Positions 408 to 63,390 of a DNA stretch of 64,000 bases are shown one piece after another. Position numbers and translations under genes: made by a program. Below the pieces are notes generated by a model, which saw only the letters and a program-made list of their open reading frames with translations, had not been told where the DNA came from and did not search any database. Every line of letters starts with the position of its first letter. The first letter of the stretch is position 1. The DNA is from an uncultured bacterium (GTDB lineage: Bacteria; Cyanobacteriota; Vampirovibrionia; Gastranaerophilales; Gastranaerophilaceae), in NCBI GenBank assembly GCA_902777385.1, contig CACYTP010000004.1:124001-188000 (forward strand), read 5' to 3'.

Positions 408-1475
408 TTAAATATTATTCTGAGCTTTTATATTATCCAAAATTTCTTTAATATATTCATTTTCATTTGTTTCCTGAAGATAGCTCAGCATTTTTTTATA
501 TTTATTATGCATATTATTCTCTTTAAAAACACTTTCTAATTTTTGAGCAATATCTAAGCCGTTATAATCTACCAGTATTTGTAAATAAACATTCGGCTTA
601 CGCTTTTGTTTTGGTGAAGTAGTTTTGAAAATTTTTAAAGTATAGTCTGTATAAAATTTATCCAGCATTTCATATAATTCACATTTATCAAGTAAATTAA
701 GGAAGTCTTTTAAATACAAATAATTTGTATGCTCAAAGCCGAAAAATTTACTAATTTCACATAACTTTTTACTGCTTTTTAAATGCCACTCTAATCTTAA
801 AATATTTAAACCGTTTAGTCTCAAAGTATTTGTACTTTTTTCATAATTTTGCTTAATTGCAGGAATTTTACACTCTTCATCGGATAATGTGTTTTTTAGG
901 ATAATTTCTGATAAGTGGTGAGTTTTTAATTCTTCAACCTTATCATAACATTTTAATTCTCTGTCTCCCACAGTATCTTTCTTTGTCAAATCTTTTGCTA
1001 CTGCAGAAATTGTTATGGTCTTGGTATAACATCCCGAATTTATAGATTTTACCTTGAATCCGTTGAAATATTTATAATTAAGAAAAGCTTCTAAATAATA
1101 ATAAATTTTTTTATTCATAAAAAAATTTTTAGTTAAATCGAGTATAGTTATCCTACAGGTTGACCGCAGTTCAAGTAAATTTTTATTTAAAAACAGCTCA
1201 TAAAACAAGTCCTTGATATGAATTTCTGCAGGCATGTCAAGGTTCGTATCTGTGTAATTTTTTAGCTCTAATATGGAATTATAATACCTTGTAGGTGTAA
1301 ACCAAAAATGGAGCATCCTACCTTTTTGGCTCAGCCAAACCATATATGAATTCTTAGCGTAATGTTTACTTAAAGTTGTTTCAATGTGTTTTTTTAACCC
1401 AAAAGCATATTCTTGACCTTTATCTTTTAACAAAAAATAACACTGTAATTTATCGATGAGTATGTTACCAAGCAT
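408..1475 (-). CDS. Rep-like protein (possible gene II/X-type replication initiator)
   Basis: This is a 355-residue protein. The middle (residues about 165-180) carries RELKCYDKVEELK and the region near 225-235 carries LNILRLEWHLK. The K-x-Y-D-K and R-x-E-x-x-L pairing resembles replication initiators of the filamentous-phage gene II/X type found on small mobile elements. No clear HUH nickase motif could be confirmed by eye, so the assignment is tentative. The start overlaps the end of the upstream gene by 11 bp and has a GAGGT ribosome site 7 nt upstream, so the two are translationally coupled. Position within an integrase-bearing element supports a replication or mobilisation role. It could equally be an unrelated element protein. 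Confidence 0.4.
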   Translation of the reverse strand: MLGNILIDKLQCYFLLKDKGQEYAFGLKKHIETTLSKHYAKNSYMVWLSQKGRMLHFWFTPTRYYNSILELKNYTDTNLDMPAEIHIKDLFYELFLNKNLLELRSTCRITILDLTKNFFMNKKIYYYLEAFLNYKYFNGFKVKSINSGCYTKTITISAVAKDLTKKDTVGDRELKCYDKVEELKTHHLSEIILKNTLSDEECKIPAIKQNYEKSTNTLRLNGLNILRLEWHLKSSKKLCEISKFFGFEHTNYLYLKDFLNLLDKCELYEMLDKFYTDYTLKIFKTTSPKQKRKPNVYLQILVDYNGLDIAQKLESVFKENNMHNKYKKMLSYLQETNENEYIKEILDNIKAQNNI

Positions 1476-2709
1476 AATAGTACCTCATTTCTGCTAAGAA
1501 CTCATCAAGTACAGATTTGGAAGGTTTCTTTAGTAACTTTCTTAACTTATTTACTTCACTTAAAATATTATCTCTCTGTCCTTTATGTACAAGGTACTTA
1601 CTTATAATTTCTTCTTGTAATTCAGGATGCAGTGCAATTAAGGTTACAACAGAAATTATTTCAGGAACATACCTTTTCCCTTTATACTGTTTTATATAGC
1701 TATTAAATTGCTTGTAATTTGATGTCTGTAATTGTTTCAAATTGCAATTGTCTAAGATTCCAGAAAGGCAAAAGAATAAGAAATTACGGATACAAGATAA
1801 TCCTGCATCATAAAGTTTGTTTATTCTTATAGAATATTTTGCATTCCAGCAAAATATTCTTCCTAAAGTTCTCTGTCCGCAGGCTCTTTTATATATAAAT
1901 TTTATGCAGTAAGGAGTGCTCCCCCTAACAATCCTGAATTTATTACTTATATTTTTATCTTTTGAATAATCTTCCTCATAATCCAAATTATCCCATCCAT
2001 ATTTTTCATAAGCTTCTTGGAGTATAATACTATTCTTTACTGTAAATTCAAGAGTCTGACTATCTGGAGTTTTCCCTATAACTAAATGTTTTTTATCCGC
2101 AGTATTTAAAGTTAGTAACTCTTCTACAAAAGCTCCATATAAAAAATCTGTTTCAATTTCAGTGTATGCCTCGAATCCTGTTATTATCCCTAAGTTTAGA
2201 TTATTATGTACAGAGCGGCAAAACCTTTCATATTCTGCTTTTTTAATATAAGGTTCTACAACAGAAAATATTAAAATCAGTATTGGAAAGTAGTAAAAAG
2301 CTGAAGCATATTCTAAAACTCTATCTTTAATGTATTCTTTGTCTTGGAGAGTACCTTTAAATATAGGTTTTGTATTAAAATTGTACAGCATATATGTATT
2401 TTTACTTATTTTAAAATTTACTACTGACCCTAATCCCTTATTTAAAAATAAAATAAAATCTTTAAGAATTTCTTTTTCAAAACCTGAATTTATTTTATTA
2501 TAAATTAATAACAGTCTTATAATTTTTCTTTTAAAGTTACTGCTATAAAAATTACTAACAACTTCTTTAACTTTAAAAGAAAAGAAATATTCCTTAATCT
2601 TTTTAATATTTACACTACTGTTAGGATATTTTTTTAAAATTATTTCAATATTTGTAAAATAAACAGAAAAAGAAAGACTATTATAAGTTGATTCAATTTC
2701 TTTTATCAT
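1465..2709 (-). CDS. Element-borne protein of unknown function
   Basis: This is a 414-residue protein that I do not recognise. It is rich in Lys, Ile, Phe and Tyr. Several hydrophobic stretches look like buried core rather than clear membrane helices, for example around residues 135-150 and 300-320. The start at 2709 was chosen over an in-frame ATG nine codons upstream because a perfect AGGAGG lies 4 nt before it. The C-terminus is basic and helical (KLRKLLKKPSK region). It overlaps the start of the Rep-like gene and lies downstream of the integrase gene on the same strand, so it is probably co-transcribed element cargo. Confidence 0.5.
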   Translation of the reverse strand: MIKEIESTYNSLSFSVYFTNIEIILKKYPNSSVNIKKIKEYFFSFKVKEVVSNFYSSNFKRKIIRLLLIYNKINSGFEKEILKDFILFLNKGLGSVVNFKISKNTYMLYNFNTKPIFKGTLQDKEYIKDRVLEYASAFYYFPILILIFSVVEPYIKKAEYERFCRSVHNNLNLGIITGFEAYTEIETDFLYGAFVEELLTLNTADKKHLVIGKTPDSQTLEFTVKNSIILQEAYEKYGWDNLDYEEDYSKDKNISNKFRIVRGSTPYCIKFIYKRACGQRTLGRIFCWNAKYSIRINKLYDAGLSCIRNFLFFCLSGILDNCNLKQLQTSNYKQFNSYIKQYKGKRYVPEIISVVTLIALHPELQEEIISKYLVHKGQRDNILSEVNKLRKLLKKPSKSVLDEFLAEMRYYYAW

Positions 2710-2807
2710 AAAACCTCCTATATTGTTATATTTCATGCAATTATTCTTAGCTTACTACTACTATTACTTATGTTATATATAAGGGTGGAATTACAGTTAA
2801 AGGTTTT

Positions 2808-3797
2808 TTAATACGCCTCTAGCTTACTCATAGCAGCAATTTTATATTCTTCGGTGGTATGCAAGTACCGTAATGTAGTTTTTATGTCCTTGTGTCCGAG
2901 AATTTCCTTAATTGTTACAATGTCAACTCCCAGTTCATTTAATCTTGAAGCTGTCGTGTGGCGTAGCTTGTGAAAAGTAATGTGGGGTATTCCTGCTTTC
3001 AAAACTGTTCTGCCAAAAGTAGTTTTGATATCCAGATATTTCCCCCTTGTTACAGGAGATGTAAAGACGTATTCACTTTCATGGAGTATTTCCGTTAATA
3101 CTTTTTTTACTTTATTTATTAGGGGAATCTTTCGGGGTTCGTTATTTTTGGTTTCTCGTACATATATGTATGGGTTCTTATTCCTTAAGAATACATCTTC
3201 CCATTTCAAATTCAATAATTCATTTGTCCTTAAGCCAGTGTATATAGCCACAATAATCATATTTTTCATTATAGGATTTGCAACCTCCAATAATTTAACT
3301 TCTTCATCCTTCATTAAAAAACGCTCTTCGGGATTTTTTATTCGGAGCTTTTTTAATTTAACACATGGATTTTCTTTTAATTTTCCATTTTCAACTGCTA
3401 AAGAAAAAATTCGTCTTATAATGTCAAGTTCCCTGTTAATACTTGAATTTTTAACTTTGCCTTTTCTAGAAGAAATATATTTATCAAAGTCCTGAAGTTT
3501 TATCAGATTTGCCTCTTTGTTACCTATAAGCTTAATAAATTTATCAATTACATAGTCAAATTCATCAGGGCGAGAACAATGAGTTTTCCTGTAAAGCTTA
3601 TAGTCCTTGTTAAGTTCTGCAAGATAAATTTTTCGCATTTTTAGTGGTGCTTGACCATTATTTACGGAAACTCTTAAATCTGCAGCTTTAAGAATAACTT
3701 CTTTCTCACTTGAATTTTTAAAAGACCGATGGTAGCGTTTACCATCAATCATAATATTAAATTCCCAGTGTCCAGCTTTATTTTTCTTTATCTTCAT
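2808..3797 (-). CDS. Tyrosine recombinase / integrase
   Basis: This is a 329-residue phage-type integrase. It has an N-terminal arm-binding region (about residues 1-60), a SAM-like core-binding domain (about 60-150) and a C-terminal catalytic domain. The visible catalytic residues are Arg in TGLRTNELLNL, a Lys in the beta-hairpin, the HKLRHTTA box giving His and Arg, a second His in LGHKDI, and the nucleophile Tyr in TTLRYLH. Length is normal for the family. Its ATG directly abuts the stop codon of the small excisionase-like gene, so the two form an operon. It presumably integrates its element at the adjacent tRNA-Pro, since the element lies on the 3' side of that tRNA. Confidence 0.93.
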   Translation of the reverse strand: MKIKKNKAGHWEFNIMIDGKRYHRSFKNSSEKEVILKAADLRVSVNNGQAPLKMRKIYLAELNKDYKLYRKTHCSRPDEFDYVIDKFIKLIGNKEANLIKLQDFDKYISSRKGKVKNSSINRELDIIRRIFSLAVENGKLKENPCVKLKKLRIKNPEERFLMKDEEVKLLEVANPIMKNMIIVAIYTGLRTNELLNLKWEDVFLRNKNPYIYVRETKNNEPRKIPLINKVKKVLTEILHESEYVFTSPVTRGKYLDIKTTFGRTVLKAGIPHITFHKLRHTTASRLNELGVDIVTIKEILGHKDIKTTLRYLHTTEEYKIAAMSKLEAY

Positions 3798-3983
3798 TTA
3801 TTCACCTAATATGACTTCTTTTGAAAATAAAAATTTCATTAATTCTTCTTTAAGGAACCTGTACTGAGTACCTACTTTTGTGCATACATTTTTAGGATAA
3901 TATTCTTCTTTTGCTTGTCTCTGTACAGTTCTTTTATCAATTCTTAACATTTTTGCAACTTCTTCCGTTGTTATAATAGTCAT
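3798..3983 (-). CDS. Small helix-turn-helix DNA-binding protein (excisionase-like)
   Basis: This is a 61-residue protein with one winged-helix/MerR-like HTH. TTEEVAKMLRIDKRTVQRQAKEE reads as a helix-turn-helix, followed by YPKNVC and a YRFLKEELMKFL helix, as in the excisionase-type HTH_17 family. Such proteins bind next to the integrase gene and bias recombination toward excision or regulate it. It abuts the integrase start with no gap and is divergent from the XRE regulator across a region holding two operator-like palindromes. Either excisionase or integrase regulator would fit. Confidence 0.75.
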   Translation of the reverse strand: MTIITTEEVAKMLRIDKRTVQRQAKEEYYPKNVCTKVGTQYRFLKEELMKFLFSKEVILGE

Positions 3984-3999
3984 CTAATACTACCTTTCT

Positions 4000-4013
4000 A
4001 CGAATTATTTCGT
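4000..4013. promoter_or_regulatory. Operator-like palindrome 1 (ACGA-N6-TCGT)
   Basis: The sequence ACGAATTATTTCGT is a near-perfect dyad between the divergent excisionase-like and XRE genes. The same ACGA-N6-TCGT spacing occurs again at 4056-4069, and both are preceded by CT. This is probably the binding site of the adjacent XRE regulator. The binding partner is inferred from position. Confidence 0.5.
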
Positions 4014-4055
4014 TATATTAATATATTAGCATAGAAAACAAAATGTGTCAAATCT

Positions 4056-4069
4056 ACGAAACAAGTCGT
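4056..4069. promoter_or_regulatory. Operator-like palindrome 2 (ACGA-N6-TCGT)
   Basis: ACGAAACAAGTCGT repeats the half-sites of the palindrome at 4000-4013 with identical 6-bp spacing, 56 bp away. It lies just upstream of the -35 box of the XRE gene, where a bound regulator could control both divergent promoters. Confidence 0.5.
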
Positions 4070-4083
4070 CATAAGCATACATG

Positions 4084-4112
4084 TTGACAGAATTAAAAAA
4101 TAAAGCAATAAT
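4084..4112 (+). promoter_or_regulatory. Sigma-70-type promoter of the XRE gene
   Basis: TTGACA at 4084-4089 is separated by 17 bp from AATAAT at 4107-4112. It lies 32 bp before the XRE start codon and immediately downstream of the second operator-like palindrome. Confidence 0.65.
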
Positions 4113-4144
4113 AAGTATGTGTAGTACTGTAGAGGGTTTAAATC

Positions 4145-4612
4145 ATGGATAGAAAAACTGCAAAAAGGACAATTATGAACATGGTAGCAGACGCGGGCTA
4201 TCCTATGGCTTCGGAAACGGAAGCTATTGAAAAGCTTATACTAAAAAAGCTGGGAACATATATTGCTACACAGAGAAAGCAGAAAGGTATTACTCAAAAG
4301 GAGTTAAATAACCTTTCCTCTGTCAGCTTGGCTGTTATTGCAGATCTCGAAAATGGAAAGAGTATGCCGAGAGTAGAGACCCTAATAAGATTGGCTATTG
4401 CTTTGAAAATTAATGTGAATGATATTTTTGAGACTATGAAGTGTGATACGAACAATGCTTTAATGAAGCCAATTAAAGCAAAAAGCTCTCGTGATTCTGA
4501 ATTAGCTTCAGCCATTGCAGGTTTTGGCTATGAGAAAAATATGGTAAATGAAATTATGGATTTTATCAGTTTTATCGAGTATAAGTACAAAAAGAACAAT
4601 TCACGACATTAA
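4145..4612 (+). CDS. XRE-family (Cro/CI-type) transcriptional regulator
   Basis: This is a 155-residue protein. Residues about 35-95 form an HTH_3 domain: the segments IATQRKQKGITQKELNN, VIADLENGKSMPRVETL and LAIALKINVNDIFE match the five-helix XRE fold. An N-terminal extension of about 35 residues and a C-terminal helical tail flank it. It is divergent from the integrase/excisionase operon and transcribed toward tRNA-Pro, the usual place for the repressor of an integrative element. The two ACGA-N6-TCGT palindromes upstream are candidate operators. Specific DNA targets are not known. Confidence 0.85.
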   Translation: MDRKTAKRTIMNMVADAGYPMASETEAIEKLILKKLGTYIATQRKQKGITQKELNNLSSVSLAVIADLENGKSMPRVETLIRLAIALKINVNDIFETMKCDTNNALMKPIKAKSSRDSELASAIAGFGYEKNMVNEIMDFISFIEYKYKKNNSRH

Positions 4613-4636
4613 AATACTATTACGACAAAAACTGCA

Positions 4637-4660
4637 ATTACACAAAAAATTACACAAAAA
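4637..4660. repeat. Two abutting 12-bp direct repeats near the element end
   Basis: ATTACACAAAAA occurs at 4637-4648 and again at 4649-4660 with no gap. The pair lies between the last element gene and tRNA-Pro. Short tandem repeats close to the junction are typical arm-type integrase sites, so that is the likely role. This is inference from position. Confidence 0.5.
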
Positions 4661-4667
4661 CATAAAT

Positions 4668-4698
4668 AAAGGACTTCAGTAAATCTCTGAAGTCCTTT
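4668..4698. terminator. Bidirectional rho-independent terminator between XRE gene and tRNA-Pro
   Basis: This is a perfect 12-bp stem, AAAGGACTTCAG / CTGAAGTCCTTT, around a 7-nt loop. T-rich sequence follows on both strands. It can end tRNA-Pro transcription on the minus strand and XRE transcription on the plus strand. Confidence 0.8.
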
Positions 4699-4706
4699 AT
4701 TTTAAA

Positions 4707-4783
4707 TGGTCGGGATGACACGATTTGAACGTGCGACCCCCTCGTCCCAAGCGAGGTGCGCTACCAAGCTGCGCCACATCCCG
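4707..4783 (-). tRNA. tRNA-Pro (TGG)
   Basis: This folds as a full cloverleaf on the minus strand. Acceptor CGGGATG pairs with CATCCCG, the D-stem is GCGC/GCGC, the anticodon stem CCTCG/CGAGG encloses CTTGGGA (anticodon TGG), and the T-loop is TTCAAAT. The 3' CCA is encoded. A mobile element lies immediately beyond the 3' end, which makes this its likely attachment site. A truncated copy of the tRNA 5' end lies 126 bp upstream. Confidence 0.95.
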
Positions 4784-4909
4784 TCGAAGCACTCGGTTAT
4801 ACCGAGATTTTATATTTATTTGTCAATTGTACCGTGCGGCTCGGTGTTTCCTCTCCTCGGAAGATACTTAATCTTCCTCGTCGGCAGAGTCAAGCTGCAC
4901 CACATCCCG
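4784..4909 (-). repeat. 126-bp pseudo-tRNA unit upstream of tRNA-Pro
   Basis: Read on the minus strand, the unit starts with a 19-nt copy of the tRNA-Pro 5' end (4909-4891, one mismatch, C to T in the D-stem). A 44-nt hairpin insert follows (4890-4847). The sequence then resumes at CAC, as at the start of the anticodon arm, diverges, and reaches a TTGACA box at 4826-4821 that probably drives the real tRNA. The 3' half of the tRNA is missing. The offset to the real tRNA is exactly 126 bp, the same period as the units upstream of tRNA-Thr(GGT) at 39644-39895. Confidence 0.75.
4847..4890 (-). ncRNA. 44-nt hairpin module inside the pseudo-tRNA-Pro unit
   Basis: Layout on the minus strand: ACTCTGCCGA, a stem with core GGAAGAT/ATCTTCC around loop TAAGT, then GAGAGGAAA. 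CTCT can pair with AGAG to close the module. The module has the same length and fixed flanks as the two at the tRNA-Thr locus, but a different, compensated stem. Expression is plausible because a consensus promoter lies upstream at 4943-4971. The function is unknown. Confidence 0.45.
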
Positions 4910-4942
4910 TCGAAAAAATTTTTCAACACAGGGTACTTAAAA

Positions 4943-4971
4943 ATTCTATTTTAAAAATAAATCAAAGTCAA
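4943..4971 (-). promoter_or_regulatory. Consensus promoter upstream of the pseudo-tRNA-Pro unit
   Basis: On the minus strand TTGACT (4971-4966) is separated by exactly 17 bp from TAGAAT (4948-4943). Transcription would start about 25 nt before the tRNA-5'-end copy and read through the hairpin module toward tRNA-Pro. Confidence 0.6.
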
Positions 4972-5098
4972 GTATTTATTTTATACGGTTTTCTTAAAAC
5001 TGTTTCCTTTACAAAGATTTACTATTTCTTGACTGCCCTATGCTTTTATAATACCGTTTATATTATACGAGTTATAAATTAGAGAGAGGATTAGGGAA

Positions 5099-6187
5099 TT
5101 GGATTTCGTTAGTTTAACAATACATTTTTTGAAAATATTAGCTTCTTATGTTGGTAGTTATGGCGTCGCCATTATAATTTTGACTTTGATAATGAGAGCT
5201 GCTATGTGGCCTTTAAATGTTTCACAACAGAGAAACATGAGAGCTATGCAAACATTACAGCCAAAATTAAAAGCAATTCAAGAAAGATATAAAAACAATC
5301 CACAGCTGATGCAACAGAAAATGATGGAGTTCTATAAAGAACACAAATTCAATCCTATGGGCGGCTGCCTTCCTTTATTAATCCAAATGCCGATATTCAT
5401 TCTTTTATATACATCTTTGATGAGTCCTCAATTTATACAGGTTGCAGGAGATTCAAGGTTTCTGTTTATTAACAGACTCGATACAACTCTAAGAGCAAAC
5501 ATAGGAGTATCAAATGACGGGAAACTTGGTGTTTCTAAGCTTGATTCTTTTGCACCGGGTAAAACGGCACGGGTATTTATCGGAGATGAAGTCATTGAAA
5601 ACGTAAAAATTAAAGATGCAAAAAAGGCTCTTGAAGTTCAGGGTGAGATTATTCCCGGTGAAAACATGGATTTGAAATTAAGTCTTGATCATCTTGATTT
5701 GAGATTCTCTCAACTCGAAAAAATTACCAAGGCTGAATTAAGTATTACCGACCTTAGCACTAAGGAAACAGAAAATATTACATTTAACCGTGAGGGCGGA
5801 CTTTTGGCAGCATCAATACCTACAGTACCGGCAAACAGGACATGGCACTGGGATGTACTTGCTTTAATTGCAATTTTCGGTATTACAATGTGGCTATCGC
5901 AAAAGCTCATGATGTCAATGAATAACAAGGGCGTTGCTGCTAACGCAGATCCTACACAACAAGCTATTCAAAAATCAATGGGAACATTCATGCCTATAAT
6001 GATTATGGCAACGTTTATAATGATTCCTATTCCTGCCGGAGTATTTATTTACCTGATTGTAAGTAATATTGTTCAGGTTATTCAAACGGTTGTTGTAGGC
6101 AAACAAATTGAAAAGGAAGAAGCTATGAAAAAAGCTGCCGTAAGTGATATAGATTTGGCAAATGCCAAAAATGTTACGAAAGAATAA
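5099..6187 (+). CDS. yidC: Membrane protein insertase YidC
   Basis: This is a 362-residue Oxa1/YidC/Alb3 insertase that places proteins in the inner membrane, alone or with Sec. A first membrane helix at about residues 15-36 carries the groove Arg (R33, LIMRAAMWPLN). A cytoplasmic helical hairpin follows, then the signature NPMGGCLPLLIQMPIFILLY around residues 85-105, a helix at about 250-270 and two at about 295-335. Between the second and third helices lies a roughly 140-residue soluble insertion, as I recall from cyanobacterial YidC. The start is TTG at 5099, preceded by GAGAGAGGA; no better start was seen. queA follows 7 bp downstream. Confidence 0.93.
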   Translation: MDFVSLTIHFLKILASYVGSYGVAIIILTLIMRAAMWPLNVSQQRNMRAMQTLQPKLKAIQERYKNNPQLMQQKMMEFYKEHKFNPMGGCLPLLIQMPIFILLYTSLMSPQFIQVAGDSRFLFINRLDTTLRANIGVSNDGKLGVSKLDSFAPGKTARVFIGDEVIENVKIKDAKKALEVQGEIIPGENMDLKLSLDHLDLRFSQLEKITKAELSITDLSTKETENITFNREGGLLAASIPTVPANRTWHWDVLALIAIFGITMWLSQKLMMSMNNKGVAANADPTQQAIQKSMGTFMPIMIMATFIMIPIPAGVFIYLIVSNIVQVIQTVVVGKQIEKEEAMKKAAVSDIDLANAKNVTKE

Positions 6188-61781: not shown

Positions 61782-62093
61782 TTATTGACCATTTACAGGC
61801 GGCATATATTTTGTCTGTGGTCCATTTCCAAATATTGGCGGCATATATTTCGTTTGAACAGTAGAATCATTTTCCAACTGAGATTGCAAACTTCCACCGT
61901 TTATCGGCGGCATATATTTTGTCTGAGGTTCTCCACCCTGAAAATGAACAGAATCCTGAGCGGAAGAATTCTGCTTCATAGCATTGATAATATCAGCAGT
62001 AGTAGGATTACTATTACCGTTTTTAATCAAATTATTCTTTGTAGCTTCATAATTTGTCTTGAATGAATTAATAGCATTTACATTGTTATTCAT
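61782..62093 (-). CDS. Small triple-repeat protein, candidate RiPP precursor
   Basis: This is a 103-residue protein. Residues 1-50 are a charged helical leader-like part (NSFKTNYEATKNNLIKNG, TTADIINAMKQ). VHFQGGEP at 49-56 carries the F-x-G motif. The C-terminal half holds three near-identical decapeptides: QTKYMPPING (57-66), QTKYMPPIFG (80-89) and QTKYMPPVNG (93-102). There is no signal peptide. The start at 62093 has GAGG 9 nt upstream. It is divergent from a radical SAM/SPASM enzyme 148 bp away. A leader plus repeated cores beside a SPASM enzyme is the layout of multi-core RiPP precursors. The role is inferred from layout only. Confidence 0.6.
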   Translation of the reverse strand: MNNNVNAINSFKTNYEATKNNLIKNGNSNPTTADIINAMKQNSSAQDSVHFQGGEPQTKYMPPINGGSLQSQLENDSTVQTKYMPPIFGNGPQTKYMPPVNGQ

Positions 62094-62241
62094 AAACAAA
62101 AACCTCTTTCTTTATTACAGCATATACTATATATAAACCCCATTTTACAATTATTTTTTAGTAAAATCTAAAATTTTTACAAAATTTTACAAAATGACAA
62201 ATCACAATCAGTACTATATGATAAGGAAAGGGAGATTTAAT

Positions 62242-63390
62242 ATGAGATACAAACCTTTAAGAGTAGTTTGGGAAATAACTTGGAAATGTAATTTAAAATG
62301 TATGCACTGCGGATCTGACTGCATATCCGTTGAAAAATCTGAACAACTCACAACTGCAGAATGTCTGGATATTGTTGCAGATTTAAAATCACTGGGAACA
62401 GAACTCATAACTTTATCAGGCGGAGAACCTCTGCTTAGAAAGGACTATTCTACAATTGCTGCAGCTATAAAAGCTCAAGGAATGGATGTAGCATTTATAT
62501 CAAACGGTTTGGCAATAAATGATGACAATATTCAAATATTAAAAGCAATAAATCCACTCGTATATGGAATGAGTATGGACTCAGCAGATGAATGGATGCA
62601 CGATTATATAAGAGGGCATAAAGGATGTTTTATGCAGCTTTTAGCGGCAATACAAGCACTTCAGGCTAACGGAGTACATGTCGGCATAGTTACTACCGTA
62701 CACAGATTAAACTTCACTCAGTTACCAAAAATCAGAGATTTATTACTAGCTTTGGGTGTTGATTCATGGCAAATTCAGTATGCCGACTTTATTGGCAGAA
62801 TGCCGCACGAAACAATGCTTACCGAAGCTCAATACTGGGAAATGGCTAAATTTATTTTGGATATAAAACAAAATTACTGTGACAGATTGTATGTAACCGG
62901 CAGTGATTCAACCGGCTATATGTCGGATTTTTCAAAAATGTTACAAGGTAACTGGTACGGATGTCATGCAGGCTTAAAAGTTCTGGGAATAGGAAGTGAC
63001 GGAACATTACGAGGTTGTTTATCACAACAAATGGATAAATTTATAGAAGGTAATGTCAGAGAACGTTCTCTTGTTGATATCTGGAATGATCCGAATGCTT
63101 TTGAATATAACAGACATTTCGACTGTTCTATGTTAACCGGATACTGTAAAGAATGTATATACGGACCAATCTGCAAAGGCGGCTGCGTAATAGCATCAAC
63201 AAATCTTGGAGATTGCAGATGTAATCCGTACTGCCTGTACAAAATTGAAAAAGAAGGTTATTCATCTGAAGAACAGGCTCGATTGGATTTTTCAAAAGAA
63301 GAAATTGCAGCACTATACAATCAGGTTCGTGAACTTCCTCCTGAATTTTATGATAATTATGAAGAACACTGGGATTGCTGTTTCAAATAA
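62242..63390 (+). CDS. Radical SAM/SPASM-domain enzyme, candidate peptide maturase
   Basis: This is a 382-residue enzyme. The radical SAM cluster is TWKCNLKCMHCGSD (C16-x3-C20-x2-C23), followed by ELITLSGGEPLLRKD, FISNGLAI and GMSMDS. The C-terminal Cys-rich SPASM region includes CHAGLKVLGIGSDGTLRGC, GYCKECIYGPICKGGC and CRCNPYC, enough for auxiliary [4Fe-4S] clusters. SPASM enzymes typically modify ribosomal peptides or protein side chains. The start at 62242 has AAGGGAG upstream and begins MRYKPLRVVWEITW; 16 extra upstream codons lack a ribosome site. It is divergent from the triple-repeat peptide gene. An enzyme of the NirJ/AhbD haem branch is the main alternative, but no haem genes are adjacent. 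Confidence 0.88.
   Translation: MRYKPLRVVWEITWKCNLKCMHCGSDCISVEKSEQLTTAECLDIVADLKSLGTELITLSGGEPLLRKDYSTIAAAIKAQGMDVAFISNGLAINDDNIQILKAINPLVYGMSMDSADEWMHDYIRGHKGCFMQLLAAIQALQANGVHVGIVTTVHRLNFTQLPKIRDLLLALGVDSWQIQYADFIGRMPHETMLTEAQYWEMAKFILDIKQNYCDRLYVTGSDSTGYMSDFSKMLQGNWYGCHAGLKVLGIGSDGTLRGCLSQQMDKFIEGNVRERSLVDIWNDPNAFEYNRHFDCSMLTGYCKECIYGPICKGGCVIASTNLGDCRCNPYCLYKIEKEGYSSEEQARLDFSKEEIAALYNQVRELPPEFYDNYEEHWDCCFK

Follow-up and report, generated by a model that had tools for sequence, protein, structure and literature searches.

In spliceotide biosynthesis, the SPASM radical SAM enzyme PlpX, a member of IPR026482, works with a truncated RRE partner, PlpY, and excises tyramine from Xaa-Tyr-Gly sites (PMC11002830). 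The natural PlpX sites contain MYG or LYG, a splice tag derived from PlpA2 has the sequence PIRPLYGLPI, and the removal of C8H9NO is established for PlpXY (PMC10533398). Protease inhibition is conferred by the spliced β-residues according to the part of PMC10373908 that reports on Scott 2022, and spliced residues are also linked to protease inhibition in PMC11117315. Here we compare with these systems a divergent gene pair encoded in a 64,000-nucleotide stretch of DNA, referred to below as the window. Gene content and the genome sets suggest an organism of the Gastranaerophilales type, a probable gut relative of cyanobacteria.

The first gene of the pair, which encodes the precursor (substrate), occupies 61782..62093 on the minus strand, stop codon included, within an open reading frame (ORF) spanning 61782..62099; its likely start is an ATG at 62093, with AGAGG upstream. 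Its product is the 103-residue protein first described, composed of a leader half (residues 1–56; 61926..62093, minus strand) and three decapeptides of the form QTKYMPP[IV]xG on the same strand: QTKYMPPING at residue 57 (61896..61925), QTKYMPPIFG at residue 80 (61827..61856) and QTKYMPPVNG at residue 93 (61788..61817). The codons for the seven residues common to the repeats vary synonymously (CAG/CAA, ACA/ACG, CCG/CCA/CCT), indicating that selection acts on the protein. Among the 216 window ORFs of at least 45 aa, the precursor alone combines a length below 500 aa with a Y[GAM]x tripeptide present three times; the peptide gave no Pfam match, and the QTKYMPP repeat has no second occurrence across the 2.32-Mb genome. 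KYMPP repeats were confined to this genome among 383 genomes of the family, the TKYMPP coding pattern yielding four single matches elsewhere, none of them repeated and one in frame within a long protein represented by a 1004-aa fragment. Nor are QTKYMPP proteins common without the enzyme in these 383 genomes, a point that the preliminary description had proposed to check. When the peptide was searched against 145 family genomes, it retrieved itself and one chance match, a phosphoesterase-like protein at L005.

The second gene (62242..63390, plus strand) encodes a 382-aa radical SAM/SPASM maturase, annotated as splicease-like from Pfam, NCBIfam and trees. Its ATG is preceded by AGGGAG, the longest form of the ORF begins at 62194, and the intergenic region between the divergent starts (62094..62241) measures, ATG to ATG, the 148 bp initially reported. 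The radical SAM motif and SPASM Cys region claimed for the enzyme are indeed present, the former as C16-x3-C20-x2-C23 and the latter with cysteines 241, 259, 302, 305, 311, 315 and 331; Pfam matches are Radical_SAM (1.4e-21) and SPASM (1e-7). An AlphaFold model of the enzyme reached a mean pLDDT of 73.6, its SPASM part being poor, and Foldseek found PqqE, SkfB and SuiB as the closest solved structures, as fold relatives only; model and search confirm just the general fold. SuiB has an N-terminal RRE domain, and the model, which starts straight at the barrel, lacks a domain of this kind. To the left of the pair lies what is presumably the phosphoglycerate mutase gene gpmI, named from its sequence; the right side holds two small proteins, whose starts resemble signal peptides, and a gene similar to that for ribosomal protein L6. 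No neighbor on either side seems to belong to the system. Within the window, neither an exporter nor a protease gene adjoins the pair, and promoter and terminator scans gave no signal usefully above chance. At positions 408-3797 and 4145-4612 of the window, an integrase-like gene, two neighbors and, nearby on the opposite strand, an XRE-type regulator make up what looks like a small mobile element.

Among the NCBIfam models, the enzyme matched TIGR03913 best (206 bits, 5.3e-61, below the cut-off of 591.75), followed by TIGR04103 (193 bits, 5.6e-57, below the cut-off of 725 bits) and TIGR04133. We take IPR026482 to be the same family as TIGR04103; in support of this assignment, cyanobacterial full TIGR04103 members lie beside Nif11 precursors (..QPLYGV..PP) and a small PlpY-like gene. 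Scott et al. are said to have predicted 939 spliceases in 2022. In an enzyme tree, the window enzyme, PlpX (TIGR04103), the GDL maturases (TIGR03913) and enzymes from Agathobacter and Phocaeicola formed one clade versus NirJ/TIGR04053 with a support of 100/98, and an earlier tree with fewer families gave the same grouping (98/96); both trees have few outgroups and some long branches, with the haem d1 enzyme NirJ as their representative of the haem and sulfatase maturases. The preliminary description had raised the question of whether the enzyme might fall among the haem or sulfatase maturases; NirJ lies outside the clade with support, and the enzyme scores far under the cut-offs of the NCBIfam models for haem and sulfatase maturases. 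By sequence, the window enzyme is placed with the PlpX splicease superclade. For this reason, and because the repeat varies the known X-Tyr-Gly splice motif, an earlier claim that the system is of an unknown kind does not stand. With PlpX, the window enzyme shares the tree grouping and both domains with their cluster cysteines, all three radical SAM and seven SPASM cysteines being common to PlpX-type enzymes; however, it stays below the family cut-off, its site reads K-Y-M instead of X-Tyr-Gly and no match to a PlpY partner was found in the genome. Because of these three departures, we describe the enzyme as splicease-like in its probable working and do not class it as a PlpX splicease.

A profile search across the 383 family genomes found a related enzyme in 47 of them, representing 13 of 41 genera. 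The window enzyme belongs to the CGSD subclade, where about 16 of 22 loci encode, next to the enzyme, a protein with X-Tyr-Gly or X-Tyr-Ala repeats; for the CGSN subclade the figure is about 10 of 11. The loci are partly non-independent, as some genomes are near-copies. Mechanical counting gave 17/22 and 9/11, respectively; these values were corrected by removing L108, where a YAI repeat near the enzyme sits in an unrelated 435-aa protein, and by adding by hand L076, the sites of which differ from one another. The background rate of such repeats was 2/126 in other window ORFs and 1/92 in distant ORFs. The repeat proteins are usually encoded within 250 bp of the enzyme and are built on many unrelated scaffolds, among them LysM proteins, an RTX-repeat protein, lipoprotein-like, signal-peptide and short acidic proteins, and several of them look exported. 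As to the enzyme occurring without a peptide, which had been named as evidence against a pair, this applies to a minority: about 7 of the 33 Tyr-type loci, some of them on short contigs, show no recognizable repeat neighbor, and most have one. At two loci of the same subclade, enzymes without a repeat neighbor (L109:6459-8756 and L110:6357-7466) adjoin other radical SAM/SPASM-like and glycosyltransferase-like genes. A scan of genome contigs with the enzyme gave one contig (L028), from a metagenome-assembled genome titled Acinetobacter, but its enzyme start and a murA-like neighbor match a genome of the family (G490; L067), and the label is probably a binning error.

The leaders provide a second connection between loci. 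The window leader aligns with those of four other enzyme-linked precursors (L053, L054, L055 and L123), with a BLASTP E value of 6e-8 against the L054 precursor, and a leader profile retrieved five strong matches, every one beside an enzyme. Weaker matches of this profile were LysM-like domains in larger proteins, one of them above the Pfam LysM threshold; moreover, hhalign related the leader to LysM-like domains with a probability of 97.5 (E 8.5e-12), and an ordinary LysM domain stands at the start of other precursors (E 3e-17 and 7e-16). This profile similarity, together with the LysM starts, makes a LysM-like domain the most likely ancestor of the leader. In many large proteins of the family, LysM-like domains share a conserved ‘..L..G(N/K)..PT..I’ stretch (L130-L144).

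The pairing of maturase and precursor that was originally claimed is thus supported by an enzyme that adjoins multi-repeat proteins family-wide and by leader homology between loci, and the arrangement of a leader and repeated cores beside a dedicated modifying enzyme is that of a multi-core RiPP. We consider it very improbable that a surface or structural protein with no relation to the enzyme merely happens to be encoded beside it. While the LysM, RTX-repeat, lipoprotein or signal-peptide character of some relatives and the few enzyme loci without a repeat neighbor would fit such an explanation, the same motif core recurs beside the enzyme in proteins of many unrelated scaffolds, mostly at the short distance given above, the enzyme is spread over 13 of 41 genera and all five strong leader matches adjoin it.

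Across the family, repeat sites follow an X-Tyr-small residue pattern and include KYGANIGC, VYGI, KYAPPP, RYAGPE and LYGVP. At 106 sites from 25 precursors, collected with a pattern that left the residue before Tyr free and limited the residue after it to G, A or M, the preceding residue is Lys (53), Val (15), Met (13), Arg (13) or Leu (12), with no others, and the following one is Ala (57), Gly (46) or Met (3, all in the window). When the restriction after Tyr was lifted, YA and YG continued to make up most of the repeated Tyr-first tripeptides. Tyr alone is kept in every Tyr-type repeat, and it is the likely target, as the preliminary description had suggested. The basic and aliphatic residues found at X are of the kinds that trypsin-, chymotrypsin- and elastase-like proteases prefer at P1.

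Met after Tyr occurs in the window precursor alone in the clade. If a splicease-type enzyme needed Gly or Ala at this position, as the known X-Tyr-Gly motif and the restriction of TKYMPP repeats to one of 383 genomes could suggest, the KYM sites would be decayed or unprocessed. We regard this explanation as unlikely: KYMPP is kept in all three copies despite their synonymous codon differences, which argues for selection, and a near-identical TKYAPP repeat is present at L074. Furthermore, YM alternates with YG in the GDL peptides, where PMYMATM lies beside MLYGGAM, Met taking the place after Tyr that Gly has in paralogues; YM thus occurs in a sister family.

We consider it reasonably probable that the pair comprises a maturase and a multi-core substrate that work like a PlpXY splicease, but free of PlpY and at a Lys-Tyr-Met site. 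The genome gave no match to PlpY or to a PqqD-type RRE, very diverged forms of which might escape such a search, and the enzyme itself would bind the LysM-derived leader. Having generated a 5'-deoxyadenosyl radical, it would cut the tyramine part of Tyr (C8H9NO) out of each Lys-Tyr-Met-Pro-Pro and join the Tyr carbonyl to the Lys carbonyl, giving an α-keto-β-homolysine backbone (a ketoamide) and a mass change of -135.068 Da per site, or about -405.21 for all three. As a lysine ketoamide would suit an inhibitor of trypsin-like proteases, the product, in which Met-Pro-Pro comes after each of the three electrophilic Lys sites, might act as a three-headed reversible inhibitor of such proteases.

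A true maturase/substrate pair could also carry out another radical reaction at Tyr, such as a Lys-Tyr or Tyr-Met crosslink, an oxidation or a side-chain cyclization, and we hold this to be possible, although not probable. SPASM enzymes catalyze diverse reactions, PlpX is a distant relative of the window enzyme, conserved sequence is no proof of conserved chemistry, and PqqE, SkfB and SuiB, the nearest solved structures, are related to the model in fold only. On the other hand, PlpX sites are matched by X-Tyr-Gly/Ala in which X is hydrophobic or basic and Pro lies downstream, LYGVPP, LYGVPV and KYGIPNP being found in relatives, and a fixed crosslink partner is missing, given that Lys at X is not conserved and Met is found only in the window.

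A further argument for variable chemistry comes from a sister subclade (CI; CxxxCxHCI) inside the same clade (L018-L023, L114, L115 and L117-L122). Beside these enzymes lie proteins whose repeats lack Tyr, for example PLAGLIAPP, PIGGLIAPP, MAGKVVPKPP and PLSGNVIPKF, and have Ala (36), Gly (13) or Ser (8) in its position. Without Tyr, loss of tyramine is impossible there; either the CI enzymes catalyze a new reaction, or the clade reacts at a residue other than Tyr. The loss of Tyr may thus represent new chemistry, showing that the reaction can vary within the clade, and it lowers our confidence in splicing for the window. As a tentative and rather speculative extension, gut cyanobacterial relatives might have a separate splicease-like branch, PlpY-free, with LysM-derived leaders and Ala or Met accepted after Tyr, from which the sister enzymes arose, acting on Tyr-less X-Ala/Gly/Ser-Gly repeats by a different backbone reaction; its products would inhibit proteases with several heads, residue X setting their specificity.

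If splicing is confirmed, backbone splicing to β-amino acids would take place in gut bacteria on many-site proteins, with no accessory RRE protein and at a site devoid of the Gly that defines the known motif, and the enzyme toolbox for placing ketoamides in proteins would be widened. The limitation of X to Lys, Arg, Leu, Met and Val suggests testable protease targets, and the Tyr-less sister repeats raise the question of how the same scaffold acts when tyramine cannot leave.

Several known systems resemble the window pair in part. The best plasmid match of the window enzyme (33.5% identity) is WP_015515522.1 of an Agathobacter rectalis plasmid; unlike the window, this Firmicutes system has a single site, and an MFS transporter follows the enzyme. 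On that plasmid (L100), an unannotated small ORF (3707-3913) ending in GPVMYGTGVRM lies upstream of the enzyme gene (3995-5149). The TIGR04133 enzymes of Bacteroidota share CGSDC after the cluster motif, but they are associated with a single site in a lipoprotein, and their tree placement depends on a long branch. In Phocaeicola, a radical SAM enzyme (L148:2399-3475) is immediately followed by a lipoprotein with CEYGTPSADY (L148:3490-3975), the sequence of which suggests that XYG sites also occur in TIGR04133-linked lipoproteins. The GDL-motif maturase (TIGR03913, with DUF1843 peptides) is the highest NCBIfam scorer for the window enzyme, and each GDL peptide has one XY[GAM] site, YM included; however, the GDL system consists of two or three short peptides with a single N-terminal site each and no repeats, together with a larger enzyme, and no DUF1843/GDL peptide is found among the ORFs neighboring the window enzyme. 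Compared with PlpXY (TIGR04103, IPR026482), the window enzyme shows about 30% identity, under the family cut-off, and the window system has no PlpY, a LysM-derived in place of a Nif11 or NHLP leader, Met in place of Gly after Tyr, and tandem repeats with linkers. Both use SPASM radical SAM enzymes from one clade; in both, the site is of the X-Tyr-small residue type, a stretch containing Pro often comes after it, and a precursor may have several such sites.
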